From contig JAUREJ010000001.1 in the NCBI GenBank assembly GCA_030827475.1, forward strand, positions 40,139-104,138: a stretch of 64,000 nucleotides of DNA, written 5' to 3'. Positions 16,699-59,364 of the stretch are shown one piece after another. This DNA is from Candidatus Poseidonia sp. (GTDB lineage: Archaea > Thermoplasmatota > Poseidoniia > Poseidoniales > Poseidoniaceae). Under the pieces are notes generated by a model. It was not told the DNA's origin. It saw nothing but the letters and a program-made list of their open reading frames with translations, and searched no databases. Each line of letters starts with the position of its first letter. The stretch's first letter is position 1. The position numbers and the translations under genes were made by a program.

Positions 16699-17547
16699 GT
16701 GAAAAGCATGGGCGAAGGCATCAAACTCCCGGTCATCAACGGCTTGGGACGCACGAACCGAATTGACAATTGGTGGAGTCAACCGCTCGCCATGGGGGTG
16801 GCGCTGACGGCGGCCTTGCTCTACACCTTTTGGCGCCTCTTCCTCTTCGGTACGGAAGCAGCGGACGGCACATCGCTGATCTCCTACAAGCTTCACGGCA
16901 GCACCGTCATGTCGCCCATCTTCTCTCCCAACGTCCTCGAATGGGACCTGTTCGGGTTGAACACCTGGAACCACCCCGAATGGGTGAATGCAGCTATTTT
17001 GGTGCTGTGGATTCCTTTCGGATTCCGAGGCACATGCTACTACATGCGCCGCGTTTACTACCGAACGTTCTTTGCCAGCCCCACCGCTTGCTGGGTGGAC
17101 GAGCCCGACATCAACAAGGCTATCGGATACAAGGGCGAAAAGCGCCTGTTCATCTTCAACAACCTTCACCGTTACTTCCTCTACGCCGCCATGGTGATTT
17201 TGGTCATCAAGTGGTGGGACGTGACCCACACCATGCACTTTACTTCCACGACCCACGACGGCTACGGCGTGTCCATCGGCACCTTCGTGATGGCCATTGA
17301 AGCGTTCCTGCTCACGATGTACGTCACCTCATGTCACGCCCTTCGACACTTGGCAGGGGGCATGCTCGATCGTTGGACCACCGGAATCAGCCGCATCCGT
17401 GGCCAACTCTTTGGAAAAATCAGCGTGCTCAACCGTTCCCACGGCTTCTGGTTTTGGACGTCGTTGGCCTTTGTCTTTTTGGGAGACCTCTGGGTCTTGG
17501 CCGTTGCGGAAGGCCGAATCAGCGATGCGGTGCTGTTTGTGATTTGA
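16699..17547 (+). CDS. sdhC: Succinate dehydrogenase membrane anchor/cytochrome b subunit
   Basis: About five hydrophobic helices with His residues; directly upstream of sdhA and sdhB. Confidence 0.75.
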   Translation: MKSMGEGIKLPVINGLGRTNRIDNWWSQPLAMGVALTAALLYTFWRLFLFGTEAADGTSLISYKLHGSTVMSPIFSPNVLEWDLFGLNTWNHPEWVNAAILVLWIPFGFRGTCYYMRRVYYRTFFASPTACWVDEPDINKAIGYKGEKRLFIFNNLHRYFLYAAMVILVIKWWDVTHTMHFTSTTHDGYGVSIGTFVMAIEAFLLTMYVTSCHALRHLAGGMLDRWTTGISRIRGQLFGKISVLNRSHGFWFWTSLAFVFLGDLWVLAVAEGRISDAVLFVI

Positions 17548-17553
17548 GGTGAG

Positions 17554-19410
17554 ATGATGGGAGAAAACGTCACGAAACACAACTACGATGTCATTGTCAT
17601 CGGGGCCGGCGGCGCTGGCCTCCGAGCGGCCATTGAGGCGGCACGCAGTGGAGCGAAAACCGCCATCATCACCAAGTCGTTGCTCGGCAAAGCCCACACG
17701 GTCATGGCCGAAGGCGGCTGTGCCGCAGCCTTGCAGAACGCCGATCCACGAGACGGATGGAAGGTTCATTTCCACGACACGATGAAGGGAAGCAAATGGC
17801 TTGCCAACTGGCGCATGGCTGAACTCCATGCCAAAGAAGCCCCCGACCGCGTCCGAGAACTCGAACAGTGGGGCGCCGTCTTCGACCGGACACCGAAGAA
17901 CCTCATCAACCAGCGGAATTTCGGCGGTCACACCTTCCCTCGGTTGGCTCACGTTGGTGACGCCACCGGTCTCGAAATCATCCGTACGCTCCAGGAACGA
18001 GGCATCCATGAAGGCATTGACATCTACATGGAATACACCGTGAGAACGTTGCTCAAGGAAGGGGACCGTGTCACCGGTTGCGTGGCCTACACTCGCGTTG
18101 ATGGTGAGTTCCACGCCTTCTCTGCCAAATCCGTGGTGCTCGCCACCGGCGGCATCACTCGGTGCTGGTCCGTTTGTTCCGGTTCGTGGGAATACACCGG
18201 TGACGGTCATGCCCTCGCCCTGTGGGCGGGAGCGGAATTACGAGACATGGAATTCGTCCAATTCCACCCGACCGGGATGGTTTGGCCTCCATCGGTTCGA
18301 GGCATCCTCGTCACCGAAGGTGTCCGAGGTGAAGGCGGTCGGCTCACCAACAGTGAAGGCAGCCGTTTCATGTTTGACTACGTGCCTGAAATGTTTGCCG
18401 GTGACCACGCCGCCACCATTGAAGAGGCGGACCAATGGGTCGAAGAGGTCGTGAGTGGTAAACTCGCCACCGTTCGCCGACCCCCCGAATTGCTGACTCG
18501 GGATGTGGTGGCAAAAGCCATCAACGCCGAGGTGAAAGCGGGCCGAGGATCGCCTCATGGAGGTGCTTTCCTCGACATCTCCCACCGTGGAGAAGAAGCG
18601 ATTTTGAAGAAACTCCCCTCCATGCACCACCAGTTCAAGGAACTGGCAGGGGTGGACATCAGCAAGGAACCCATGGAAGTTGGACCAACGGCGCACTACG
18701 TCATGGGCGGCGTCCGTGTGGATGCTGAATCCCAGGAAACAACCGTTCCCGGACTCTTCGCATGCGGCGAAGTCGCCTCAGGACTGCACGGGGCAAACCG
18801 ACTTGGTGGAAACTCACTGTCCGATCTCATCGTGTTTGGAAAGCGAGCCGGCGAATTCGCAGCCTTGCGTGCGAAGGACTTGGCTCAACCTGCCATCAAT
18901 GACGGTCAAGTGGAGGCAGCCATCGCCGACATGCTTGCACCTCTCCAACGAGAAGGGGGCGAAAACCCCGGTCGCATCTACGACGAGATGCGGGACATGA
19001 TGCAAGCCAAGGTCGGCATCATCCGAACAAAGACCGAACTTGAGGAAGCTCTTGACGATATCAAGGCGTTCAAGGAACGTGCGATGGCGTGCTCCTCGGG
19101 CACCTCTCGGAAGTACAACTCGGGCTGGCATCAAGCACTTGACCTGATCAACATGGCCGATGTCTCGCACGCCGCCACGCTCGCAGCCATCACCCGCGAA
19201 GAGAGCCGAGGCGGTCACACACGGGACGACTTCCCCACGCCCGAAGACGACTATTGGGGGAAGACATTGAACATCATCTGGATGGAAAACGGCGAGATGA
19301 AAATCCGCCAAGAGCCCGTGGAAGCGATGCGAGATGACCTCCAAGATACCCTCAAGGAAGTGAAAGCGATGATCGCAGAGCGAGCCGCAGAAGCGGGAGG
19401 TGGGAATTGA
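17554..19410 (+). CDS. sdhA: Succinate dehydrogenase/fumarate reductase flavoprotein subunit
   Basis: VIGAGGAGLRAAIEAARSG, HTVMAEGGCAAAL, RNFGGHTFPR, EFVQFHPTG, GLFACGEVASGLHGANRLGGNSL. Confidence 0.97.
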   Translation: MMGENVTKHNYDVIVIGAGGAGLRAAIEAARSGAKTAIITKSLLGKAHTVMAEGGCAAALQNADPRDGWKVHFHDTMKGSKWLANWRMAELHAKEAPDRVRELEQWGAVFDRTPKNLINQRNFGGHTFPRLAHVGDATGLEIIRTLQERGIHEGIDIYMEYTVRTLLKEGDRVTGCVAYTRVDGEFHAFSAKSVVLATGGITRCWSVCSGSWEYTGDGHALALWAGAELRDMEFVQFHPTGMVWPPSVRGILVTEGVRGEGGRLTNSEGSRFMFDYVPEMFAGDHAATIEEADQWVEEVVSGKLATVRRPPELLTRDVVAKAINAEVKAGRGSPHGGAFLDISHRGEEAILKKLPSMHHQFKELAGVDISKEPMEVGPTAHYVMGGVRVDAESQETTVPGLFACGEVASGLHGANRLGGNSLSDLIVFGKRAGEFAALRAKDLAQPAINDGQVEAAIADMLAPLQREGGENPGRIYDEMRDMMQAKVGIIRTKTELEEALDDIKAFKERAMACSSGTSRKYNSGWHQALDLINMADVSHAATLAAITREESRGGHTRDDFPTPEDDYWGKTLNIIWMENGEMKIRQEPVEAMRDDLQDTLKEVKAMIAERAAEAGGGN

Positions 19411-20177
19411 TGTCCTTGAAAGGTACCAAGCAATCGTTTAACATTCTACGGGGCGAAGGCGAAGAAGCCAAGCTCACGGCTTACGAATTGGAACTTGATG
19501 AAGGCATGGTGGTATTGGACTGCGTTCATCGCATCCAGCACGAGCAAGAACCCGACATGGCGGTACGGTGGAACTGCAAAGCTGGCAAGTGCGGCTCGTG
19601 TTCCGCTGAAATCAACGGACGACCCCGCTTGATGTGCATGACCCGGATGAGCGACGTGGTTGCCGAAACACCTGCAGGCCAGCCCATTGAAATTCGACCG
19701 ATGAAGACCTTCCCGCATGTGAAGGACCTCGTCACCGATGTCAGTTGGAACTACGAGGTCGCCCAACGCATCAAACCCATCAACGGCCCGGAACACAAGG
19801 ATTGGGAATTCAACCAAATGGAAGCCGACCGCGTTCAACACTTCCGGGAGTGCATCGAATGTTTCCTCTGCGTCAACACCTGCCACGTTTTGCGAGACCA
19901 CGAACTCTTCGATGATTTCGCCGGGCCACGAAACCTGGTTCGCCTGGCACAGTACGAGATGCACCCGCTCGATACCGAAGACCGGGTTCCTGAAATCAAG
20001 AAAGAATTTGGCGTGGAATACTGCAACATCACGCGATGTTGCACTGAAGTTTGCCCCGCTGGTATCCAAATCACCGACGATGCCATCATTCAACTCAAGG
20101 AGCGCGTGGTTGACCGGTATTACGACCCGCTGCAGCGCATTTGGCGCACCCTGACGCGGAAAAAGGTCCGCTACTGA
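19407..20177 (+). CDS. sdhB: Succinate dehydrogenase iron-sulfur subunit
   Basis: NCKAGKCGSCSAEINGRPRLMC, CIECFLCVNTCHV and CNITRCCTEVCPAGI cluster motifs; 4-nt overlap with sdhA. Confidence 0.96.
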   Translation: MMSLKGTKQSFNILRGEGEEAKLTAYELELDEGMVVLDCVHRIQHEQEPDMAVRWNCKAGKCGSCSAEINGRPRLMCMTRMSDVVAETPAGQPIEIRPMKTFPHVKDLVTDVSWNYEVAQRIKPINGPEHKDWEFNQMEADRVQHFRECIECFLCVNTCHVLRDHELFDDFAGPRNLVRLAQYEMHPLDTEDRVPEIKKEFGVEYCNITRCCTEVCPAGIQITDDAIIQLKERVVDRYYDPLQRIWRTLTRKKVRY

Positions 20178-23025: not shown

Positions 23026-25005
23026 ATGAAGGCGAAAGGTCAGCCAGCACACATGGCTCGCCCGCAGCAACTGACCGTCCTCGCCTCGCTCTGCCTCGTC
23101 CTGGTGATGCTCTCGGTGGTTTTCAGCCCGCTGACCTCATCGCTTGATTCAACCTCAACCGTCGCTCCAACCGAGGGACGACAGGACGGTCTTGACGTGG
23201 ATTGCAGCGGCTACTCCTTTGAAGATCTCTTCGAATACGACTTTGCACTCTTTGAACTTGACATCTTGGACGACTGGGCCACCGGTGACTTGTACGCGAA
23301 TGCGTGGGTAAACGGCTCGAACTCACCCATCGTCCGCGACAACCTGGACGGCTTGTTCGAGGGCTTGCCGGGTGGCGATAACGATTGGATCAGCACGGAC
23401 GAGCGAGACGCCGTCCGCAGCATCGGGCCAAAGTGCATTGCGGACATGGAGACGCGCCTCGGTATGCGAGAGGGCATCCCCCATTCGGGCGGTGTTGATT
23501 GGAACGATTTCGAATTCGTTGAGGACGGTATCGGTTTGGACGAGGTCAACTTGGTTCCTGAAAACCATCCCGACGCTCGTTCATGCACCAACTTCGGTGC
23601 GGCAGCCGATTGCAAAGAAGTTCCAACTTCAACCACCGACGACATGGAAATCGCCCTCGAAGTGGCGGATGGCAAATCCAACAATGTTCGGTGGGACCAA
23701 TTGCCCAACAGCGGCGTTTCAAACTTCACCCTCGCCATGAACATCACCAACATGAGCAATGCTGCCCTCCGGGTGACCTTCCCTGTGCTTCAAGGGCTGC
23801 GCATGTATGATTTCCGTGTAACGGACAATGCACCCGACAGCGGTCAAACCTGCGACCACATCAACCCACCTTCGTCCACCTACCTGGGCGACGGTTCGCT
23901 TCAGGTGACCCAGCTCGTCGCCTTTGACCGAACACAGTGGGACCTTCAGTGCAACATGTTCATGGATTTCACAACCGAGGAACCGGCGACCAACGACGTC
24001 CCCGCTTGGACAGCCACGGTACCTTCCAACGGAACGAAGATACCAACTTCCGGTGAAGGAACTTGGCCGTTTGCCACCGCTGCGGTCGGCAACGCCTGGG
24101 CGACCGATGAGAACGGTTGGGCTCTGCAGTGCACCTTTGACGAAGCAGGTTGGAGCGTCACGAACAACGTGTTGGGCGACTTTTTCGTCACCCAGCCCGC
24201 AAGCTCAACGATGGTAACAGCCACCTGCCACGCCGTTGACCCCTTGGGCGCAACCGATGAAAACGATTCTCGCACATGGGTCTTTGGAACGCTGTTCACC
24301 TCAACGGCAACCCTGAGCGAAGACGGCAGTAGCGTGGTGATGAGCGTTACCTCCGCTGGACTCGTTGATGAATTCATCTTCTCAGCTCGTGCGCTGCAAG
24401 GCGAGGCGATGGGCGCCCCCGGCGAGACCGTCACCGTCAGCGGCACGATGGCGACCGAAGTCAGCGTTTCTCTTGACAACATCCGCCCTGGCGCCTTTGG
24501 ATTCAAAACCGAGGCGCAGGCCACGAGCATGCTCGCCTTTTCCTCTGAATATGACCTCGGCTTGGTGAAGCCCAACACGCCGCCAGTGGTGCAAATAGCC
24601 ACAAATTTCAACGGGGAAAACGCAACTTGGGACGAAGGGCAACTGCAATTCTCCATGAACGGTTTGGTTTCGGACCCTGATCTCGAAGCGGTCACCATGC
24701 GATTGACGATTTGCGGAAGCGATTACCAAGGTTTCACCATCGACGGCATCAACTGGAACGTTGATGTTTCCACCGCCGTTTGCATGGCGTATGGCCTCAC
24801 AGATTACGATGTGGTGATCACCGCAACGGACGAATCTGGGGGCACGACCCAAGTGATGGTCGGGATCAACTCGCCCGTGGTCGACGATACGCCGGTCGCT
24901 CCCGCTCCGAGTGAACCTGAAACCGCTCTGCCTGCTGCAAGCCTGCTCTCGGTGCTCGGGGTCCTCGGTGCCGCCGTGCTGGTCCGCCGCAAACCCGATG
25001 CTTAA
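23026..25005 (+). CDS. Secreted/surface-anchored protein with C-terminal TM anchor
   Basis: Signal-like LTVLASLCLVLVMLSVVFS; Ig-like ectodomain; C-terminal LPAASLLSVLGVLGAAVLVRRKPDA. Confidence 0.8.
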   Translation: MKAKGQPAHMARPQQLTVLASLCLVLVMLSVVFSPLTSSLDSTSTVAPTEGRQDGLDVDCSGYSFEDLFEYDFALFELDILDDWATGDLYANAWVNGSNSPIVRDNLDGLFEGLPGGDNDWISTDERDAVRSIGPKCIADMETRLGMREGIPHSGGVDWNDFEFVEDGIGLDEVNLVPENHPDARSCTNFGAAADCKEVPTSTTDDMEIALEVADGKSNNVRWDQLPNSGVSNFTLAMNITNMSNAALRVTFPVLQGLRMYDFRVTDNAPDSGQTCDHINPPSSTYLGDGSLQVTQLVAFDRTQWDLQCNMFMDFTTEEPATNDVPAWTATVPSNGTKIPTSGEGTWPFATAAVGNAWATDENGWALQCTFDEAGWSVTNNVLGDFFVTQPASSTMVTATCHAVDPLGATDENDSRTWVFGTLFTSTATLSEDGSSVVMSVTSAGLVDEFIFSARALQGEAMGAPGETVTVSGTMATEVSVSLDNIRPGAFGFKTEAQATSMLAFSSEYDLGLVKPNTPPVVQIATNFNGENATWDEGQLQFSMNGLVSDPDLEAVTMRLTICGSDYQGFTIDGINWNVDVSTAVCMAYGLTDYDVVITATDESGGTTQVMVGINSPVVDDTPVAPAPSEPETALPAASLLSVLGVLGAAVLVRRKPDA

Positions 25006-25053
25006 ACCGACACAACCAAAAGGCAATGGTAGCAGGAATCAGCAGGCCTCACC

Positions 25054-26292
25054 ATGTTTTCAGGTACCGTTGAATCAAAAAGCCACGAAGGGGGCTTGCT
25101 GGTTCACTTTGAGGGCTCTTCTCCTTCGTTGAACGCCATCATGGTTCGCAGCGACGATGGCACCTACATCGGCAAGGTGGACGGGGTGCTCGGAAGCACG
25201 GAACACGCTTTGGCTCATATCGCTCACATTGACCGTTCGCTTGACATGGAGGAACTCATTGGCGTCCAGGTGACGGTCCGGGCAAAAAAACAGCGGGAAG
25301 ACCGTTCACGAAACGAAGGACGTTTTAGCGACCGAAACCGAAACGACCGAAGTTCGGGCGGTCGTTGGGAGCGAAACGATGGAGGTTCCGACCACCAGCG
25401 GCACAACGGAAGGTCCAGCGACCGAAACCATCGCAGCGGGCGTTCAGACCAACAACCATTCAACGATGATTGGGATTGCCCCAAATGCAACAACTCGAAC
25501 TTCGCTCGGCGGACGGAGTGCAATCGCTGTCAGGCGACTCGCCCTCAAGGCGACGGGAGACAGCAAGGTGGATTCCAACGCCGAGACGACCGCCGAGACG
25601 ACCGAAGAGGCGGATTCCAACGCCGCGATGACCGCCGAGACGGACGGTCCCAAGGGGGTAACAACAACTCGAACGACTGGACATGCCCTGCATGCAACAA
25701 CTCAAATTTCTCGTTCAGAAACACCTGCAACCGGTGCGAAGCAGCTCGCCCTGCGGGCGGTGTCGATAGAGGGGGTCGCAACGACCGAGGCGGTTACCAA
25801 CGTCGAAATGACCGTCGTGAAGGGGGATATCGCAACAACCAACGAAACGACCAATCCAGAGACGGGCGTCAGCAGAACGGCAATTTCAACACCAACGATT
25901 GGACCTGTGCTGCATGCAACAACTCAAATTTCTCGTTTAGAAACGCCTGCAACCGATGTGAGGCACCTCGCCCTGGAGGCGGTGGTGGCGGCGGTCGCAG
26001 CGACGGAAGAAGCCGAGGTCGCAGCGACGGAGACCGACGAGACTTCCGTAGAAACGATCGAGATGGTGGCTTCCAACGCCGAGACGACCGTTCCAACGGT
26101 GGTGATGACCGGCCACAGCGAAGAAACGACCGAGGTGGTGGCTTCCAACGCCGAGACGACCGACGCTCGTCTTCCGACGGGGCTTACCGGCGGTCAAGGG
26201 GAAAACGCTCTGGCCACACACACAACCAACCTCCCCGTGACTTCCGGGACGGCGCCCCACCACGGAGATATGAGCGAAAAACAGACGAATGA
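25054..26292 (+). CDS. Gar1-like protein fused to three RanBP2-type zinc fingers in an Arg/Asp/Gly-rich tail
   Basis: N-terminus GTVESKSHEGGLLVHFEGSSPSLNAIMV...YIGKVDGVLG...LIGVQVTVRAKK fits the archaeal Gar1 pattern (PSLN; IGKVxxVxG). Three copies match WxCx2Cx3Nx6Cx2C: WDCPKCNNSNFARRTECNRC, WTCPACNNSNFSFRNTCNRC, WTCAACNNSNFSFRNACNRC. Confidence 0.85.
   Translation: MFSGTVESKSHEGGLLVHFEGSSPSLNAIMVRSDDGTYIGKVDGVLGSTEHALAHIAHIDRSLDMEELIGVQVTVRAKKQREDRSRNEGRFSDRNRNDRSSGGRWERNDGGSDHQRHNGRSSDRNHRSGRSDQQPFNDDWDCPKCNNSNFARRTECNRCQATRPQGDGRQQGGFQRRDDRRDDRRGGFQRRDDRRDGRSQGGNNNSNDWTCPACNNSNFSFRNTCNRCEAARPAGGVDRGGRNDRGGYQRRNDRREGGYRNNQRNDQSRDGRQQNGNFNTNDWTCAACNNSNFSFRNACNRCEAPRPGGGGGGGRSDGRSRGRSDGDRRDFRRNDRDGGFQRRDDRSNGGDDRPQRRNDRGGGFQRRDDRRSSSDGAYRRSRGKRSGHTHNQPPRDFRDGAPPRRYERKTDE
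25689..25752 (+). repeat. Copy 1 of near-identical ~64-bp repeat encoding zinc finger 2
   Basis: ctgcatgcaacaactcaaatttctcgttcagaaacacctgcaaccggtgcgaagcagctcgccct. Confidence 0.9.
25911..25974 (+). repeat. Copy 2 of near-identical ~64-bp repeat encoding zinc finger 3
   Basis: tgcatgcaacaactcaaatttctcgtttagaaacgcctgcaaccgatgtgaggcacctcgccct. Confidence 0.9.
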
Positions 26293-26301
26293 GGCGGTAC
26301 C

Positions 26302-27330
26302 ATGACTGCGGAGTCGCATTACCTCAACGCTCTCGAGGCTTTGGAAAACGGCGACCGTGTTCAAGCAAAAGCCGAGGCAAAAAAAGCAACACAACTCGAT
26401 GAAGACCACCTTGAAGCGTGGTCGGTCTACGTTGAGGCTTGCCTACCACCAGGTGGCGTCTCCCCGACGATGAACGAGGCAGCAAGCGCCCTCTCCGGAA
26501 CCAAACGCATCGTCGCTGCAGACCCCAGTCGTCTTGACATGTGGATGCGTGGGGGGCGTCTGCTCGCTGATGATTTAGGAATGCTTCACGACGCACTTCA
26601 TTGGTGGCAGCGATGCCGAGACCATCTCCCCGATGAGGTGACGCCGGTGGTTGAAATGGCTTCCATTCTCGCCGATATGGGAGAATACGCTCTGGCTCAA
26701 GAGCGCCTGCAAGCCATCCTCAACGACAACATGGATGTCGGCATCACCCAATTTCGAAAAATTAACGGCCTGCTCCAGCTGGTCAAAACGGCTGCAACTC
26801 AGGACCGAACCGAAATCTTCCGCCCCTACGAGAAGCATCACGACGGATGGGCCGCTATTCGGCTCAAAATGCGGAAACCACCGCTTTCGGAGTCCTTCAT
26901 TTTCCTCGTTACGGCCGTTCCCGTGCTTCTTTTGCTCGTTCTCCTCTTGGGCCGTTACAGCGCACCGACTTGGTCGGCCGTCTGTTTGAACACGCTCGTC
27001 ATTCTGATCGTCATCATGGTGCTCATGCGAAACGCCAAGCGTTGGTTCCAAGTGTTCAACCGACCCGCATTTAATCTGTTAAGGGCCATGAATTTCGAGG
27101 CCGCCACGGGCTTTGTGGTGATGGACGAAGACATCCGAACATCGGTGCTTTACATGTACATCATGCAAAGAAAACCTCGTTCGTGGCAGGAACGCATGCT
27201 CAAAATCATTGACAAAGGGAAGCCTCTGCCCAACAATTGGCGACTTCGCATGCCCGATTTCACCTCGCATCTTGACGGGGACGACGGTGAAACAGCAAGC
27301 CACGAAACCTTCTGGTCAGAAGAAGAGTGA
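26302..27330 (+). CDS. TPR-like protein with C-terminal TM region
   Basis: YLNALEALENGDRVQAKAEAKKATQLDEDHLEAW and later TPR-like helices; two hydrophobic helices near residues 195-240. Confidence 0.75.
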   Translation: MTAESHYLNALEALENGDRVQAKAEAKKATQLDEDHLEAWSVYVEACLPPGGVSPTMNEAASALSGTKRIVAADPSRLDMWMRGGRLLADDLGMLHDALHWWQRCRDHLPDEVTPVVEMASILADMGEYALAQERLQAILNDNMDVGITQFRKINGLLQLVKTAATQDRTEIFRPYEKHHDGWAAIRLKMRKPPLSESFIFLVTAVPVLLLLVLLLGRYSAPTWSAVCLNTLVILIVIMVLMRNAKRWFQVFNRPAFNLLRAMNFEAATGFVVMDEDIRTSVLYMYIMQRKPRSWQERMLKIIDKGKPLPNNWRLRMPDFTSHLDGDDGETASHETFWSEEE

Positions 27331-27626: not shown

Positions 27627-30600
27627 CTATTGCAGGGATTGCGCGTACTGAATCGCATATTGCTGCGCATAAGCCGCTGCCGTTGCAGCATCGTAACCCT
27701 GCCCCACAAACTGGTTGTAGTATTGCTCGTAAACCGCTTGATCGTAACCAGCGGCTGGTTGTGCTGCGGCTGGTTGTGCTGCGGCTGGTTGTGCTGCGGC
27801 TTGGCCGACGTACTGTGCGGCGAACGCACGAGCCGTTTCTTCGGGGTAACCCTGTGCAATCAGTTGCTGGACGTATTGTTCGGTCGGATCAAGGGCGTCA
27901 GCGCCGAAGGCACCTTCCATGCCGGAGAAGACGTCTTCCTTTTCACCGCCCTTTCGCATGAACATCACCGATCCACCGATAATCACGAGCAGGAGGACGA
28001 TGCCCCCGATGAGAATCATCGGGTCAAGGCCGGATTCCGTTGCGTCTCCACCATCGTTCGTCTTGGTGTTGTCCTTCCATTCGCCGGTGACGGGGTCGTA
28101 TTCCCACGCACCGCTCCACTGGCAGTCGCCGTTTTCATCGAGGATGAACTCGCCTCCGGCAGCTTCCGCTTCTGGGTTTGGTTCAAGGCCTTGACAAGCA
28201 GGCAAATTCAACTCGATCCACTTGATTGTCACCCAGCGTTCGTTGGGGGAGGATCCTTCGTAGTACTTGATGTACACACGCTGTGTTGTGGACTTGTTCG
28301 TATAGAAGCCTTCAATGTTCAGTGTGATCTCAAAGCGGTCGTTGTCGCCCATGGCGTCGCTCTTCCCGTACAATCCTCGGGTGCTCATGTTAAACTTCAT
28401 GACCGGGGAAGCGGAGAAATCCTCCTCAAAGAAGGCTGCTTCCACATACACTTCACTCGTTTCTGCACCGGAGAGGACCGTTCCAGCGATGGTGATGGTG
28501 TCCTGGTCGTACTTGGACTCGTTCACTGCGGTGTCCCACTGAATCACGGGTTCCTCATCTCCGAAGCCCTCGGGAACAACCACGAAGTACATCCGGTGTT
28601 TTTCCGAGAACTTACCGGCGCTGTCGTAAACGACCAATTCCATACGGATTTGGTTCTTGGTGGTGCCCGTTGAATCCACAGTCACGTTCTGGAACTTGTA
28701 CGACCACAAGCCGCCGCTCGCAGCACTTTGGGTGAAGGTGTGCCCGTCGAGATCGAAGGTGTCGTCGCCGTAGGGAGCGTCGAACAGAACCTTCCACTCA
28801 TAGGTCTCAATGCCGTTGCCGTCAAGTGCATCAGCGTCGGAGGAATTGCTGGCGTCAAAGTGGATGACCAATTCTGCATCCTCGCCTTCACCCTGTAAGG
28901 TGATTTGGTAAACGTCCCATTCGGCGTTCGACACCGTCTTCGTGCCGGTGAACTCAACGTTTTCTTCGTAATCCGTACGGATGTCAATCGTGGCGTCGGC
29001 CTCAGGACGGAACTCATCGGCGTAGACATCGTTGGTCTCAACGGTCACGTCGATGATACGAGCATGGCCAGCATCGTCATGGAGCATCAGCGTGATGTCC
29101 CACTGTTCACCTTGAGCACAGCCGGTCTGAGAAGCCAAATCCGCCTTACAGAAGGTCATGCTTGGTGCTGCATCGGTGCTGTGACCGGTCACACCGTTAG
29201 CGAGACTGGAGCCGTCCCAGTTGGTCGGACCGTCGATGATCCAATCCGTGTGGAGGGTTTCGGTGGTCGTCGTGGTGAAACCGAACTCAAGCGTAGCATC
29301 GCTCTTCATGTAGCGCAATGCGTAGTTACCGGTACTCGGGTCAATGCTGGGCACTTCACCGTTGATGGTGAGGTCAAGCCCGTTGCCCAAGGTGCCGAAA
29401 CCGTCAGGGTACGGCGTGACTTGGTGCTGAAGCAGGTTGCCCAGCAGCGGGAAGGTCGTGCTGTCAGCGCGCTCAGAGTGCGTAGCGACGTCGATGGTGG
29501 AGATGATCATGCCGCCGGAGAAGTAACTACACACTCCAAGAACCGTGTCTTGGATGTCTTCTGAAGAACGGATGAGACGCTGGAAGTAACCGCCGTCTTC
29601 CATGTAACCGTCGCAGGTCTCAGGGACATTGTTGGTGCTCACGGATTTCGTGTTCAAGACGGCCTGTGCGACACCGGAACTCGCATCAAAGCCCTGGAAG
29701 GCGTTGACATCGATGTTGTCCATGATGGGGTGGTACGGGTCGGCCAAGTCCATGGTCGAGTACGTCACCTGAGTCTCTGCCGTGTCTCGGCTTTGGACGT
29801 CCAAGCCAAAGGGCAGACGACCGGAGAGGCCTTGGTCAAGTCCGTAGATTTGGCTTCCAAGTGGGCCGAGGTGAGCCTGAACCGTGCCTCCAGCGGACAT
29901 GAAGTTCTCGAGAACCGTTCGTCGGGCGGGTTCGCCAAGATACTGGTAGTATCCGTCACCGCCAAATTGCGTGTCCTTGGCGACGAGTTGTTCCTGCCAA
30001 GGGAGGACGATCTTGTCGTAGTGGGTGAACCATCCTGCGTCAAAGTAGGTGCTCCAGTCGTTGATTTCGTACTGGGTGTAGGTCATGTTGAGAATGGCCA
30101 GGTCTTCTTTGATGGCCGAGGTGCGCGAAGAGGTGTCCGAAAGGATAGCGACGTCAACGCGATCGGCGAAGGAAGCGTGGAAGTAGCGAACGTTGCCCGT
30201 TTCACTGCCGTCGGAAAGACGGCCGTAGAAGCTGATGTTGTAGGTGTGTCCGTCAAGCCAGCCATTCCAGGGAGTGAAGGTCACGTCGGTGCGCTCTTGG
30301 CTTTGAAGGGACACCGCTGGTCCAGAGTCAACCAAGTGGGCTTGGCTGCCATCGGCCATGTCGGTGACTTCCATGTAGAAGATGTAGTCACCTCCCAGCA
30401 CACCGTTTGTCGCCTGGATGTCCCACGAGTGGGTCAAGGCGGCGTCAATGGGCAAGACGCACTCCAGCGTTTGGTCAGAGTGGCAGGTCAAGGTGTTCGG
30501 TTTCCCGATGGAGATGTCAACGGATTCCACGTTGAAGATCACGCGCTCAATGTTATTTGCTGTGGACAATTCGTTGTCGTTAAACCAAGGCTTTCCGACC

Positions 30601-33600
30601 GTGGTGTTATCGAAGACCGTCTTGATGTCCAATCGATAGACACCTGAGACGAACTCGTGGCTGGCGATGGTGGTCAAGGCTGCTTCCTCGGCGTCAACGT
30701 TCGTTCGAGAAGTGGAGTAGGTGGCGTCCTGGACGAAGGTGTATTCTTGGAGTGAGATGTTGTTGAAGCCAACACCCTTGAATCCATCGTTGATGCCGTT
30801 GCGTCCGTCATCGTCGGATTGGAATTCAAAGTGAACATCAACCATCGAGCCTTGCAGAGACATGCATTCTGCGCGCCACTGCGTGGAGTCGGAGGACGAG
30901 CGGTTGAGGACGTACAGGTGCGTGAGGTCAATGCTCGTGGTCTTGACCAATTCTTCAGAGTTGAAGAAGACGTTGTAGTTGCCCGAGCCGTCGGTGTTGG
31001 CAGGATCGCCAATAAATTGCAATTCGGTTCGGTCAATGGATTCGGTGGCGTTCACGATACCGTTGCCGTCGTCGTCGTTCTGGCAGGTTCCATCTTCGTT
31101 GTAGTCGTTCCATTGGGCGTAGACAAGACCGGTGTAGTTTGTGCCGTCTTTGTCGTAATCAACGGTCATGACAGCGTAGTCGCTGGGGTCAATGTTCCCG
31201 TTCTGGTCGATGGTGTAGAAGGTGTCAGCGTAGTACTCAAAGTTCAGGGAGACGAAGTCACCGCCCATGTTCGTCAGGTCGATGTTGGGGATGGTGAGGG
31301 TCTCGTTTGCCCAAGCGTCGTCGTATCCGTTGGTGCCGGTGTCACAGGGGTGGCCGAACCAGTAGGCGTTGTTGTTGAAGATCTTGGTCGAACACGAGTT
31401 TTCGTTGTAAATAGCACCCTTTGGTTGCTGGTTTTCTTCGTATCGGTAACCCTGCGTACCACCCTCAAAACTCTCCACGCAGATGGCGGAAGGCGTTCCG
31501 CAGTACACATCGGAGGGCGTAGCGGAGTACACCGTCGCTTCAATGTCAAAGTCAACGGGGGTGTTGCCGAAATTGTTGGTGGTCACGCCGATATCAAAGA
31601 TGCCCTCGGCGTAAAGGCCGCCGGGCTTGAAGAACTCAATCGATTCAACCGTCGGGTCGTAGAGATTGAACGGTGTCACATAACCAACGGCGTCGTCGTT
31701 GATGGCCTGTTGGTCCCAAGCATTGTTGGAGATGGTTGCGGAAATTCGGTAGGTGGTGTCGTTCAGCAGGTTTGCCGTGATTGAGGTGGTGTATTCCTGG
31801 CCGGGCTGAAGGTTACTCAGCGGGCCGATGGTGGTGGTTTGGGTTTGAGGGTTGGGCAAGAAGGCCGTGTTTTGCTTCCAGATGGTCAAGTTGTCCACAG
31901 CAAATCCGTCACGTCCGCTCCAACGACTCTCGTTGTCGTTGGCGGTTGAACCCTCAAAGCCGGTTCGGAAGCGGAAGCGGATGTCAACGGTCTGGTCGGC
32001 CCATGGCGAGAGGTCAAACGCACCAAGATCCTCCTCGGTGAAGTTGTCCCAGCCGTAGTAGGTGCCGGGGGAGAAGAGACCGTAGTAGACGATGTTCTCT
32101 GGAGCAGCCCCCCAAGAGTTGATCTTGAACATGCGGTCGTTGTCAAACCCGCCCCACATCGATGCGCCCGAGGCACATGCGCCCTGCACGGCGGCGAGTT
32201 GCGGACAGCCGATGAGGCTCCAGCCTGTTTCGTCGCTTCCGACCTCGATGATGGCAAGATCGTCCCAGACATCGCCGACAATAAAGCCGGTTCCGTCGGA
32301 GTTTCCGAGGGCACCAAGTCCCAGATGACGGAAGAGTTCGACGCTCATGAAGGCGCGGTCGGCACCCGTGAGGTCAACATCGGTGAGCACCATGGCATCG
32401 TCCCAGTTTTTGCCGTAACCCGTCCAAGTATCACCGCTGCCGTTGGTCTTGGTTTCACCGGCCCACATGAAGTCGGTTGGGTTGATGTAATTGGCTGAAA
32501 CATTTGGGTCGTTGTTTCCGGTCGAAGCCCCCACGGATTGGTTGGTTTGGAGGTGCCACTTGGTGAGGCCGTCAACGTATTCTTCGTAGGCCCATGAACA
32601 GCCGGTTCCGCAACCGGTCTTCACTTCGGGAGAATCCCAGTCGTTGGCGTACACCGTGGTGTTCGTGGAATTGGCTTCGTCTACGATTTTCAAAACGACG
32701 TCAAGGTCGGCCGTTTGTCCGTTGAGCGTGTCCATTCCGGTGTTGGTGACCGTCACGTTGACGGTACGGGTTCCTTCACCGACGACACCAAAGAATCGGT
32801 CGGTGGGGCTGATCTCCAAATCCGTCACGGCCAAATCTTTGTTGTCCATTTCGACCACGGTGAGGGTGTCGTATTGACCCGCCCAGCCGAAGTTGTCTCG
32901 CCATCCGCCAAAGGCGTAGTTCGTGTGGCCCACGACCAAATCTGGAGCTGACGACGGACCGCCTTGGAGCTGTCCAATCGCCACGGCTGACGGGCGTCGG
33001 CCGGCTGGATAAGAAAGCGGACTCACGTGGTTTCCGTTGCCGTCGGAAAGGGTCACCTGAACGGTGGTTGGGAAAGAGAGGAAGAAGCTCGAGGTGCTTC
33101 CACCAGCGGAGTCGGTGGTGTTGAGTTGGTAAGCAATGGTGGGGTTCACGAAGTCGGGTTCGCCGTCGCCGTTGAGATCTTCAACCTCAATGGCCCACGA
33201 AATGTAGGGGCCGAAATAGGCCATCTTGGCATTTCCAAAGGCCCCCTGAGCCGTAGTTTGCTTGTACGACACGTTTTCGAGGTTGCCGTCCATCACAGCG
33301 ATGGTGTCGATGTAGCCGCTTGAGCCAACATCGGCAATGGCGAAATCCTCGGTGGAGGGGACGCCCATGTTGACCACGTGCGTGTTGGCTTGGTTGGTTC
33401 CGTAGGCGTACGTTGCTGGGTAGTTTTGGGTGAGACAGTCGAATTCAATGATCGTGATGTTGTCGTCGTTACCGGGGTTGGTGACTTGGCCGGTGGCATA
33501 ATCCAGACCTTCGCTTCGCAGAAGGAAGATATCGTCGTCGGTTGTTGATGCAGCCCCGTTGCACCCAAAGGCAGGGTTGGTCTCTCCCCAATCACCGACT

Positions 33601-34301
33601 TCGATGCTTCGGTAGGTGTTTTGTTGTGCCGAGCCAAGGTTCGTGACGAAACCTTGCGTGGAGGAGGAGATGGGTCCCTTGTAGGTCACCACTCGCTGGG
33701 TGGTAATATCAGCGAGCAAATCAAGGACATACACGTCGTCGTCTCCGTCTTGGTCTGCATCGCCGACAGCGAGGTCCCAGACCCAAAAGTGAGTGAATCG
33801 TGCTCCGATGGACCAGTCACGGTTTGAACATCCACCGTTCTCGAGGATCGTGACGTTGCCAGGTTCGCCAGCGGGTTGCCCTTGGTCGTTGGTTTTGAAG
33901 GGGTTATTTTTCTGGTAGATGACGATGTCAACCGCATTGTCGCCGGTGAATTCACCAACTTCCACGAATTCAACGTTGGCAAACTCATCCCAGTCTGCGT
34001 TGCGGCTTTGGTTGCCTGCCACCCAAATGTCTTGACGGTCGTTGAAATTGCCCAGGCCGTCGTTGTACAGGATGGTCATGGTGTGGGTTCCGTCGGTAGC
34101 AACAGCCATGTCGTTGTGCCCATCGCAATCAAAATCGCCGATAGCGACGTCCATGGGGTCGCGGTTGGTGGTGTATGTTCGTGCGACGGAGGCACTTGCG
34201 GTGGTTGCGAGCGCAGCCGTGGTGCTGAGCACCATCAAGACGGTGAGGAAAAGACTGCGCATTCGGGCTTTAGAGAGGTCGTTTTGGGCAAGCATAGACA
34301 T
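27627..34301 (-). CDS. Giant secreted, membrane-anchored protein with FG-GAP/VCBS-like repeats and cytoplasmic tail
   Basis: About 2224 aa; signal peptide after MSMLAQNDLSKARMRSLFLTVLMVLSTTAALATTASA; AIGDFDCDGHNDMAVA, DADQDGDDDVYVLD, DLNGDGEPDFVNP repeats; CARDB-like segments; TM MILIGGIVLLLVIIGGSVMFM; A/Q/Y-rich tail. Confidence 0.88.
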   Translation of the reverse strand: MSMLAQNDLSKARMRSLFLTVLMVLSTTAALATTASASVARTYTTNRDPMDVAIGDFDCDGHNDMAVATDGTHTMTILYNDGLGNFNDRQDIWVAGNQSRNADWDEFANVEFVEVGEFTGDNAVDIVIYQKNNPFKTNDQGQPAGEPGNVTILENGGCSNRDWSIGARFTHFWVWDLAVGDADQDGDDDVYVLDLLADITTQRVVTYKGPISSSTQGFVTNLGSAQQNTYRSIEVGDWGETNPAFGCNGAASTTDDDIFLLRSEGLDYATGQVTNPGNDDNITIIEFDCLTQNYPATYAYGTNQANTHVVNMGVPSTEDFAIADVGSSGYIDTIAVMDGNLENVSYKQTTAQGAFGNAKMAYFGPYISWAIEVEDLNGDGEPDFVNPTIAYQLNTTDSAGGSTSSFFLSFPTTVQVTLSDGNGNHVSPLSYPAGRRPSAVAIGQLQGGPSSAPDLVVGHTNYAFGGWRDNFGWAGQYDTLTVVEMDNKDLAVTDLEISPTDRFFGVVGEGTRTVNVTVTNTGMDTLNGQTADLDVVLKIVDEANSTNTTVYANDWDSPEVKTGCGTGCSWAYEEYVDGLTKWHLQTNQSVGASTGNNDPNVSANYINPTDFMWAGETKTNGSGDTWTGYGKNWDDAMVLTDVDLTGADRAFMSVELFRHLGLGALGNSDGTGFIVGDVWDDLAIIEVGSDETGWSLIGCPQLAAVQGACASGASMWGGFDNDRMFKINSWGAAPENIVYYGLFSPGTYYGWDNFTEEDLGAFDLSPWADQTVDIRFRFRTGFEGSTANDNESRWSGRDGFAVDNLTIWKQNTAFLPNPQTQTTTIGPLSNLQPGQEYTTSITANLLNDTTYRISATISNNAWDQQAINDDAVGYVTPFNLYDPTVESIEFFKPGGLYAEGIFDIGVTTNNFGNTPVDFDIEATVYSATPSDVYCGTPSAICVESFEGGTQGYRYEENQQPKGAIYNENSCSTKIFNNNAYWFGHPCDTGTNGYDDAWANETLTIPNIDLTNMGGDFVSLNFEYYADTFYTIDQNGNIDPSDYAVMTVDYDKDGTNYTGLVYAQWNDYNEDGTCQNDDDGNGIVNATESIDRTELQFIGDPANTDGSGNYNVFFNSEELVKTTSIDLTHLYVLNRSSSDSTQWRAECMSLQGSMVDVHFEFQSDDDGRNGINDGFKGVGFNNISLQEYTFVQDATYSTSRTNVDAEEAALTTIASHEFVSGVYRLDIKTVFDNTTVGKPWFNDNELSTANNIERVIFNVESVDISIGKPNTLTCHSDQTLECVLPIDAALTHSWDIQATNGVLGGDYIFYMEVTDMADGSQAHLVDSGPAVSLQSQERTDVTFTPWNGWLDGHTYNISFYGRLSDGSETGNVRYFHASFADRVDVAILSDTSSRTSAIKEDLAILNMTYTQYEINDWSTYFDAGWFTHYDKIVLPWQEQLVAKDTQFGGDGYYQYLGEPARRTVLENFMSAGGTVQAHLGPLGSQIYGLDQGLSGRLPFGLDVQSRDTAETQVTYSTMDLADPYHPIMDNIDVNAFQGFDASSGVAQAVLNTKSVSTNNVPETCDGYMEDGGYFQRLIRSSEDIQDTVLGVCSYFSGGMIISTIDVATHSERADSTTFPLLGNLLQHQVTPYPDGFGTLGNGLDLTINGEVPSIDPSTGNYALRYMKSDATLEFGFTTTTTETLHTDWIIDGPTNWDGSSLANGVTGHSTDAAPSMTFCKADLASQTGCAQGEQWDITLMLHDDAGHARIIDVTVETNDVYADEFRPEADATIDIRTDYEENVEFTGTKTVSNAEWDVYQITLQGEGEDAELVIHFDASNSSDADALDGNGIETYEWKVLFDAPYGDDTFDLDGHTFTQSAASGGLWSYKFQNVTVDSTGTTKNQIRMELVVYDSAGKFSEKHRMYFVVVPEGFGDEEPVIQWDTAVNESKYDQDTITIAGTVLSGAETSEVYVEAAFFEEDFSASPVMKFNMSTRGLYGKSDAMGDNDRFEITLNIEGFYTNKSTTQRVYIKYYEGSSPNERWVTIKWIELNLPACQGLEPNPEAEAAGGEFILDENGDCQWSGAWEYDPVTGEWKDNTKTNDGGDATESGLDPMILIGGIVLLLVIIGGSVMFMRKGGEKEDVFSGMEGAFGADALDPTEQYVQQLIAQGYPEETARAFAAQYVGQAAAQPAAAQPAAAQPAAGYDQAVYEQYYNQFVGQGYDAATAAAYAQQYAIQYAQSLQ
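27751..27795 (-). repeat. 15-bp tandem repeat x3 (gcggctggttgtgct) encoding AQPAA
   Basis: Exact repeats read directly, within the C-terminal tail of the giant protein. Confidence 0.95.
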
Positions 34302-34327
34302 CACTTGTCTCGGCGAGGCCTTGTTGC

Positions 34328-34335
34328 AATATAAT
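34328..34335 (-). promoter_or_regulatory. Candidate TATA box for the giant surface-protein gene
   Basis: Minus strand GCATTATATTGC about 27-34 nt upstream of the ATG at 34301. Confidence 0.5.
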
Positions 34336-34423
34336 GCCTTTGCAAAGCAGTTCATGATTTGGCATCCAGCGTCCCGTTTTTTGTAAAAAGGGAGGCGTTT
34401 TTCGCCCAAATTGAACCCCAGGT

Positions 34424-35122
34424 TCAGAATCGTCCAACGAGCCATTTTGGAGCAGGGCCCCATCCAACGGCATCGCCGCCATGGATTTTCACAAGCTTCC
34501 CAGCAGCAAAAAGGGACTGAAGCCAGACCTCAAGCGATGTGCCCTCCCGGCCACCCAGTTTACTGCTGGCGATTTCTTCGATATCTTCGGTGCTGAGCCC
34601 GCTCATTCCGTGGTCGCGAACCACAAGTTGGAGAAGTTCCCTCAACCAGGCCTCAGCAAGCGGATCAACGCTGGTTGCGCTTGAGACGGGTTGTGGGGGT
34701 TCGATATCTTCGAGCATGGCCATGAGTTCAACCGCATCAGGTCGTTCAGCTGGTTCAAGCCCGACCTCCGCCAGTTTGACTTTCAAATCCAGTTCCCCGA
34801 TGGGGCGGCGGACGACAGGAATTCGTCCGGGGTCCGGCTCTGGACCCATATCAAGCGGTTTGGAAGATTCTGGGGCATCGTCCTCTTGGGGCCCCGGCTC
34901 CTCTTTCTGGCGCTTCCGGGTCACGCTCGAGAGGTTGGTTGCCTTGACTTCAGTTCCTACAGGCATGGTCCATCCAACGCCGGAGAGACCGAGTTCGGAG
35001 ATGTGCTCTTCAACCCAAGATGCCTCGCCTTCGATGACAACGTTGAGGTCATGGTCGTCCGAGCGGAATCGGTAACGTACCTTTCCACGGAACTCCGCCA
35101 TCAGTCTCTCGGCAGAACACAT
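34424..35122 (-). CDS. Hypothetical protein
   Basis: About 232 aa (MCSAERLMAEFRGKVRYRF...); start trimmed to avoid aconitase overlap; helical C-terminus. Confidence 0.7.
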   Translation of the reverse strand: MCSAERLMAEFRGKVRYRFRSDDHDLNVVIEGEASWVEEHISELGLSGVGWTMPVGTEVKATNLSSVTRKRQKEEPGPQEDDAPESSKPLDMGPEPDPGRIPVVRRPIGELDLKVKLAEVGLEPAERPDAVELMAMLEDIEPPQPVSSATSVDPLAEAWLRELLQLVVRDHGMSGLSTEDIEEIASSKLGGREGTSLEVWLQSLFAAGKLVKIHGGDAVGWGPAPKWLVGRF

Positions 35123-37889: not shown

Positions 37890-38900
37890 TCACCAGAATT
37901 GGTACCAAGGCGTTGTTTCTGAGCCCACGAAGGTGGCCTTCACCAGCTTGACGTCCTGCACCGGCTTGTCGTTGGCGCCGGTATCGGTGTGGGAGATCGC
38001 GGTGACGAGGTCGCAGCCTTCGGTCACCTTACCGAACACCGTGTGGACACCGTCAAGCCAGTTTGGACCGTTTCCGTTGTTGCTGTCTTCTGGAATCAGG
38101 AAGAATTGGCTGCCACCGGTGTTGGGGGCGCTGGTTTTCGCCATGGAGATGGTGCACACTTCGTGAAGCAGGCCGTTGCCGGCTTCGTCCGGAACGGTGT
38201 AGAGGGTCTGGTCGCAATCCGCCTCTGCTGCACTGTTCCCGTTGCAGTAGCCAAACCACTTGGCTGCATGGCCGCCGGTCCCGTCTCCTTTGGTGAAATC
38301 GCCGCCTTGTATCATGAAGTCATCGATGACCCGGTGAAAGATGGTGTCGTCGTAACGACCCTGTTCAACGAGGAGTTTGAAGTTCTCAACGTGAACGGGG
38401 GCGTCGTCAGGATACAGTTCAATGGTGATGACGCCCGTTGAACCGCTGCCCCACGACATCTCAAGTTGCACGATGTCGGTGGTCGTGTCGGTTTGGTTGG
38501 CGAGGTTGATGCCAGCGAGCACCAAAACGCCAGCGAGGAAGATGGCGACGATACCGGCGGGCGTTGGCGTGCCATCGTTGAGCAAACGAGGGAAGTTGGT
38601 CTCGCTGATGCGCTTGTCCTGCATCTCGTTGAGCAGGTCGTTGTAGAGGCTGCCCGCCTTTTTGTCCCGAGGGTTCTTTTTGGTCGCTTCGCGAAGCAAG
38701 GAGGCGGCCTTTCTGTACGTGCCTCGGTTGTGTCCGTTCTTTGCTTCAACCCATGTGGCATGACCGGCCAAGCGTAGCGTGGTGGCCTCCGAACCATCGG
38801 GGTCGGTCTCTCGAAGAATCTTGAGCGCCGCATCGCCTTTTCCTTTGGCGATGGCCTTCTCGGCTTTGTCCCAAGCCGTTGACAATTTGTCGTCCGCCAT
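37890..38900 (-). CDS. Membrane-anchored peptidyl-prolyl cis-trans isomerase (cyclophilin)
   Basis: IELYPDDAPVHVENFKLLVEQGRYDDTIFHRVIDDFMIQGGD, SMAKTSAPNTGGSQFFLI; TM before the catalytic domain and helical N-terminus. Confidence 0.93.
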   Translation of the reverse strand: MADDKLSTAWDKAEKAIAKGKGDAALKILRETDPDGSEATTLRLAGHATWVEAKNGHNRGTYRKAASLLREATKKNPRDKKAGSLYNDLLNEMQDKRISETNFPRLLNDGTPTPAGIVAIFLAGVLVLAGINLANQTDTTTDIVQLEMSWGSGSTGVITIELYPDDAPVHVENFKLLVEQGRYDDTIFHRVIDDFMIQGGDFTKGDGTGGHAAKWFGYCNGNSAAEADCDQTLYTVPDEAGNGLLHEVCTISMAKTSAPNTGGSQFFLIPEDSNNGNGPNWLDGVHTVFGKVTEGCDLVTAISHTDTGANDKPVQDVKLVKATFVGSETTPWYQFW

Positions 38901-58992: not shown

Positions 58993-59364
58993 TCACTTCT
59001 TGAGGCCCTTGATGGCCTCAACAACATCGTGGAATTTCTCTTGAGCGCCTTTGGTGATTTCCATCACGGCCACCGAAGCAGCGGAGGTGCCTTTTGGAAG
59101 ACCTGCGCCTTGGGCGAGGAACTCTTGGCTCGGCACATAGCCGTAGGGGATGTCTTTCTCTTCACAGATCAAGGGGATGTGAGCGAGAAGTTCGGGAGGG
59201 TTCACGTCTTCAGCGAGAATGATGAACTGAGCCGTACCGCGCTCGGCGGCCTTGGTCACTTCGTTGCTGCCTTTCTTGACTCGACCGTTCTTGTTCAGGT
59301 CAAGCATGGCATAAATCTCGTTCACGACGTCTTCTGGGGTTTCAAATTGCACATGTACACTCAT
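58993..59364 (-). CDS. rpl7ae: Ribosomal protein L7Ae
   Basis: GRVKKGSNEVTKAAERGTAQFIILAEDVNPPELLAHIPLICEEKDIPYGYV; start MSVHVQFETP after GGAAGGAGAG. Confidence 0.96.
   Translation of the reverse strand: MSVHVQFETPEDVVNEIYAMLDLNKNGRVKKGSNEVTKAAERGTAQFIILAEDVNPPELLAHIPLICEEKDIPYGYVPSQEFLAQGAGLPKGTSAASVAVMEITKGAQEKFHDVVEAIKGLKK

Follow-up and report, generated by a model that had tools for sequence, protein, structure and literature searches.

Gar1 binds the catalytic domain and the thumb loop of Cbf5 within the H/ACA ribonucleoprotein (RNP), and speeds both catalysis and product release (PMC7991803, PMC4551948). Archaeal Gar1 proteins have been described as devoid of GAR regions, and the RGG domains of Gar1 have been treated as specific to eukaryotes (PMC7991803, PMC8096250). 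In yeast, removal of the RGG domains alters turnover, probably via contact with the substrate RNA, and the role of the tail was called elusive (PMC8096250). RanBP2-type zinc fingers are known from a different set of RNA-binding proteins; the contact residues and GGU affinity have been reported for the fingers of ZRANB2, FUS and EWS, those reading GGU in ZRANB2 and FUS being D4, N14, an aromatic residue at position 17, R or W at position 19, R20 and N24, and two linked fingers bind (GGU)2 at 0.2–1 micromolar (PMC6384913). The ZRANB1-B finger, which does not bind RNA, has Lys-Ser at positions 19–20 (PMC6384913).

The window analysed here, a 64-kb stretch of DNA from Candidatus Poseidonia sp., carries an open reading frame (ORF) that combines both kinds of domain (Table 1). 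It starts with ATG and encodes 412 aa plus a stop. A mildly acidic barrel (pI 5.6 for residues 1–80) is followed by a very basic C-terminal tail (pI 11.1 for residues 81–412) of 332 aa, about four times as long as the barrel. The tail consists of 23% R, 14% G, 13% D, and 11% N, and contains 4 RGG and 5 RRDD repeats along with repeats of FQRRDD, so that RDD-type repeats are at least as frequent as RGG. Within the 412-aa ORF there is no N-terminal extension and no GAR region preceding the barrel, as the eukaryotic type would have. The first-pass annotation, made from the sequence alone, had described this ORF as a Gar1-like N-terminus with three fingers set in a low-complexity tail rich in RGG and RDD; the ORF is as it was described, the composition and repeat counts of the tail agree, and the reading as a whole, a Gar1 with a RanBP2-fingered tail, is supported by the predicted fold, the sole copy, and an order-wide survey.

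Table 1. Features of the gar1 locus and its surroundings; positions refer to the window.
Feature	Position	Strand	Evidence or remark
659-aa protein, syntenic partner upstream of gar1	23026..25005	+	homologue in 33 of the loci compared
gar1 gene with finger-bearing tail, 412 aa	25054..26292	+	ORF call; pI 10.5
Gar1 beta-barrel domain, residues 1-80	25054..25293	+	hhalign, AlphaFold/Foldseek, dN/dS
R/G/D/N-rich, presumably disordered tail, residues 81-412	25294..26289	+	composition, repeat counts, similar tails of relatives
RanBP2-type finger 1, residues 139-166, ZRANB2-like (R19 R20)	25468..25551	+	Pfam 46.2 bits
RanBP2-type finger 2, residues 208-235, FUS-like (aromatic 19, R20)	25675..25758	+	Pfam 34.6 bits
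RanBP2-type finger 3, residues 282-309, FUS-like	25897..25980	+	Pfam 35.9 bits
TPR-like protein downstream of gar1, 9-base gap	26302..27330	+	homologue in 30 of the loci compared
L7Ae, H/ACA and C/D particle and ribosomal protein	58996-59364	-	Pfam E 4e-21

With the archaeal Gar1 proteins (PF04410; structures 2ey4 and 2hvy) the protein shares the barrel, its presence as a sole copy, and the company of Cbf5, Nop10, and L7Ae in the genome; the known ones, however, are short and without GAR tails (PMC7991803), whereas the Poseidoniales protein has an R-rich tail with three fingers. The GAR-tailed Gar1 of eukaryotes resembles it in joining a barrel to an arginine/glycine-rich extension, but has GAR regions on both sides, while the Poseidoniales protein has a C-terminal tail only, in which RDD and RGG repeats are combined with RanBP2 fingers. 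To our knowledge, eukaryotic Gar1 carries no zinc fingers.

The Gar1 family, PF04410, is the sole Pfam match of the isolated N-terminal domain, with a score below the cut-off (E 0.033, 14.4 bits vs 29.3), and the NCBIfam Gar1 match is likewise sub-threshold (E 0.027). An orthologue from genome G188 clears the PF04410 cut-off with 30.3 bits. Of 32 orthologous N-termini, 31 have Gar1 as a match, with hardly any other family among the hits; the Gar1 pattern that had been noticed at the N-terminus is therefore real. A canonical Gar1 profile, composed of 34 Thermoplasmatota Gar1 sequences with Poseidoniales excluded, aligned by hhalign with the orthologue profile over 76 columns (E 1.2e-9, probability 96%). 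The AlphaFold model of residues 1–86 (pLDDT 87, pTM 0.76) bears out the proposed structural match as well: the best PDB matches in Foldseek are the Pyrococcus furiosus Gar1 structures 2ey4 and 2hvy (TM by target 0.82–0.87, rmsd 1.4–1.9), and every one of the first 12 is a Gar1 or Naf1 structure, with eukaryotic Gar1 and Naf1 ranking after Pyrococcus. On the joint evidence of the orthologue matches, the profile-profile alignment, and the predicted fold, the N-terminal ~80 aa are a Gar1 domain. The sub-cut-off PF04410 score is a matter of single-sequence sensitivity, as both the fold and the profile comparisons point to Gar1. The canonical FGPVxxPY motif is eroded in this genus, where it reads GKVDGVLGSTEHALAHI (pattern GSTxxxLAHI), and GPV or GPI is kept at this position in several relatives from family f2. 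This erosion counts against the Gar1 reading, as it bears on the Cbf5 contact surface, whose residue-level conservation is presumed. A direct sequence search of the PDB did not find Gar1 either with the N-terminus alone or with it as a profile; the best match of the N-terminus, a leucyl-tRNA ligase at E 0.1, is due to chance.

Naf1, an assembly factor, shares the Gar1 barrel, and a Naf1 structure (2v3m) also matches the model; moreover, Naf1 has long flanks. It is nevertheless highly improbable that the protein is of the Naf1 type instead of Gar1, since archaeal Gar1 structures rank above Naf1 in Foldseek and no other protein of the Gar1/Naf1 family was found to fill the Gar1 role. The genome assembly to which the window belongs comprises 1.82 Mb in 100 contigs and is 87% complete, and a PF04410 search of it gave no further member. 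The canonical profile was run against this genome and 15 further genomes of Poseidoniales, one of which is a single contig; in none of the 16 did it find the separate canonical gar1 that the first-pass annotation had thought worth looking for. In family f2 the profile of the canonical short Gar1 hits this long ORF itself (E 8e-6 to 2e-4), and among the ORFs hit are two with fingers, 291 and 307 aa in length. A weak match of the profile to 25 residues within a 438-aa frame elsewhere in the own genome (G000:C38, E 0.10) was judged to be due to chance. Five bins (G010, G017, G023, G254, and G272) contain tailed Gar1 in two or three copies that differ in sequence, which may reflect strain mixture or true paralogues.

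The genome encodes one Cbf5, with DKCLD, TruB, and PUA domains, a GGTLDP motif, and an SAVK thumb loop, as well as one Nop10, and L7Ae is encoded in the window itself. An Rfam scan of the 64-kb window revealed one tRNA only and no H/ACA guide RNA. The Gar1 fold, the sole copy, and the co-occurrence with Cbf5, Nop10, and L7Ae suggest that the barrel would dock on the catalytic domain of Cbf5 and handle the thumb loop as in other Gar1 proteins.

Across all six frames, the window has three copies of the strict pattern WxCx2Cx3Nx6Cx2C, each in the gar1 ORF (from residues 139, 208, and 282), and none of 200 codon-shuffled windows has any. All three exact fingers reported earlier are thus recovered, and the Pfam RanBP family PF00641 matches the protein in three stretches (E 6.7e-26), each of which alone exceeds the cut-off of 27 bits. 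The best PDB match of finger 1 is ZNF265/ZRANB2 (1n0z, E 1.9e-6), with FUS (6g99) at E 8.1e-6, and that of finger 2 is FUS (6g99, E 4.7e-7); the RNA-binding fingers of RBM10 and TAF15 are also among the best, and those of MDM2 and Nup153 stand lower in the list for finger 1. Finger 3 is nearly a duplicate of finger 2 at the protein level (dN 0.06, dS 0.65). The set of GGU-contact residues (D4, N14, W/F17, R/aromatic 19, R20, and N24) is complete in all three. Among 155 canonical fingers, a set that excludes the variant C-x4-C fingers and whose members are not independent, given the relatedness of the sequences and the duplication of fingers within single genes, D4, N16, F/Y17, and R20 are each present in 155/155, N14 and N24 each in 149/155, and F, W, or R at position 19 in 147/155, while other surface positions show 0.9–2.8 bits of variation. 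This conservation is not circular, since the search pattern fixed only W5 and the cysteines.

The fingers thereby have the same RNA-contact residues as ZRANB2 and the FET proteins (FUS, EWS, and TAF15), and likewise lie within arginine-rich low-complexity sequence; they differ from the FET type in being C-x2-C fingers, in occurring in one to four copies, and in being joined to a Gar1 barrel. FET proteins have one RRM and a single C-x4-C finger. The RanBP2 fold is a protein-binding module too, and the presence of MDM2 and Nup153 in the PDB list could be taken to mean that the fingers bind ubiquitin-like or particle-associated partners, as NZF-type RanBP2 fingers do, and not RNA. This is very unlikely, as the PDB list is headed by fingers that bind RNA, those of FUS, ZRANB2, RBM10, and TAF15, and as the Lys-Ser of ZRANB1-B is replaced here by a mostly aromatic or Arg residue followed by an invariant Arg. 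By analogy with these RNA-binding fingers, each finger would bind single-stranded RNA with a GGU or GG motif, and we infer that the tail gives the H/ACA particle an extra, GG-preferring hold on single-stranded RNA.

The full-length protein was matched in 55 of 59 related genomes, and RanBP fingers were found in 114 of 146 Poseidoniales genomes; the strong matches whose sequence was read lie in the Gar1 frame. In family f1 each of the genera read (g1–g5, g15–g17, g19, and g20) has at least one finger. In family f2 canonical fingers are present in g7, g9, g10, g11, g13, and g14, g21 has only a variant finger (C-x4-C, with Lys at position 20), and the finger of g6 is degenerate. Fingers are absent from g8 and g12, genera with small genomes from each of which two genomes were read; their tails remain R/G-rich. 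Across Poseidoniales the number of fingers ranges from one to four. A second type of finger, PGDWxCPKCKNHNYASKxxCNRSSC, with C-x4-C in its second half and Lys in place of Arg20, was observed in the Gar1 tail of f2 relatives (L135, L137, L138, L114, and L134), alone or alongside canonical fingers. The predicted GGU reading is not universal in the order, given the fingerless g8 and g12, the degenerate finger of g6, and Lys20 in several f2 genera.

Elsewhere in the Thermoplasmatota sampled, the sister order included, Gar1 comprises 71–104 aa and is fingerless, in agreement with the description of archaeal Gar1 as normally short and without GAR domains (PMC7991803), which the first-pass annotation had also given. 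In the genomes of the phylum that were searched, the only RanBP finger above the cut-off outside Poseidoniales belongs to one unrelated protein. A candidate for a fingered Gar1, L217 (G300:C2), was rejected as an unrelated proline-rich protein of Thermoplasmatota; it has an N-terminal hydrophobic segment, a proline-rich middle part, and a single C-terminal RanBP2-type finger. The survey of the tail among the Gar1 homologues of the phylum shows that finger-tailed Gar1 is an order-wide trait of Poseidoniales (marine group II). Because both families have the trait and the outgroups are without it, its gain is placed in the ancestor of Poseidoniales, with later losses, a placement that follows from distribution and not from a tree. 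Low-complexity repeats are easily misassembled in metagenome bins, but the chance that the fusion arose from misassembly or a wrong frame is negligible: dozens of assemblies made independently show the same fusion, as does a genome that consists of one contig, and both the barrel and the fingers are under purifying selection in this frame, dN being far below dS for each finger.

The distribution also bears on what the protein does. A tail four times as long as the barrel, FUS-like fingers amid R-rich sequence, and a divergent barrel motif would fit a protein derived from Gar1 that now acts mainly as a FUS-like general RNA-binding or condensate protein, its part in pseudouridylation being secondary or lost. 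We regard this as unlikely, since the N-terminal part is under strong constraint (dN/dS 0.02–0.10 against four relatives) with an intact fold, and it is the sole Gar1 in a genome that retains Nop10 and a Cbf5 with its thumb loop. The survival of finger-less orthologues speaks for the barrel as the essential part; the fingers, lost from two or more genera whose genomes are small, look accessory and not essential to the particle.

Judged by sequence, modelled structure, and analogy, the protein is probably a genuine Gar1, and the only one, of the H/ACA RNP, with a tail that adds sequence-preferring binding of single-stranded RNA. Carried on flexible basic linkers, the fingers could keep substrates such as pre-rRNA or tRNA close to the enzyme independently of the guide, and such tethering may aid capture or slow the escape of the product. 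The tail may thereby tune pseudouridylation; a role in substrate choice or in condensates is speculation. It is a possible but rather doubtful extension that Poseidoniales H/ACA particles pick or retain substrates partly via Gar1 fingers reading GGU or GG, a targeting layer independent of guide RNA that would have arisen separately from the GAR tails of eukaryotes and might support a nucleolus-like RNA condensate.

The architecture itself is a real one, belongs to a widespread archaeal protein, and has no match in the open-access papers searched, among which nothing relevant was found on archaeal Gar1 with RanBP fingers or on pseudouridine in Poseidoniales. Tailed Gar1, regarded as a eukaryotic feature, thus has a more elaborate archaeal counterpart; Poseidoniales break the eukaryote-only rule and add predicted sequence-preferring fingers. 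Fingers of the FUS type within R-rich low-complexity sequence are now placed in an archaeal housekeeping RNP, and either convergence with the FET proteins or domain transfer from eukaryotes is possible. As related genera differ in the retention of fingers, they form natural pairs for asking what the tail of Gar1 does.

In the window gar1 is the middle gene of a three-gene block (23026–27330, plus strand) that is conserved across Poseidoniales. The 659-aa protein encoded upstream matched no Pfam family, and the downstream protein matches TPR_19 just below the cut-off (E 4.5e-5). In the sister order the neighbour of gar1 is a TFIIB gene, and genes for succinate dehydrogenase stand ~3 kb further on; the same succinate dehydrogenase genes lie at 16708–20174 here, ~5 kb upstream of gar1, and this shared proximity lends weak positional support to the orthology of the gar1 genes. 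A gene on the minus strand (27627–34463) converges on the block and encodes a 2278-aa protein, by its look probably secreted or surface-anchored, homologues of which are found beside gar1 in 25 compared loci. Farther downstream, a cyclophilin-type prolyl isomerase (37893–38900, minus strand) has a weak TPR match towards its N-terminus.
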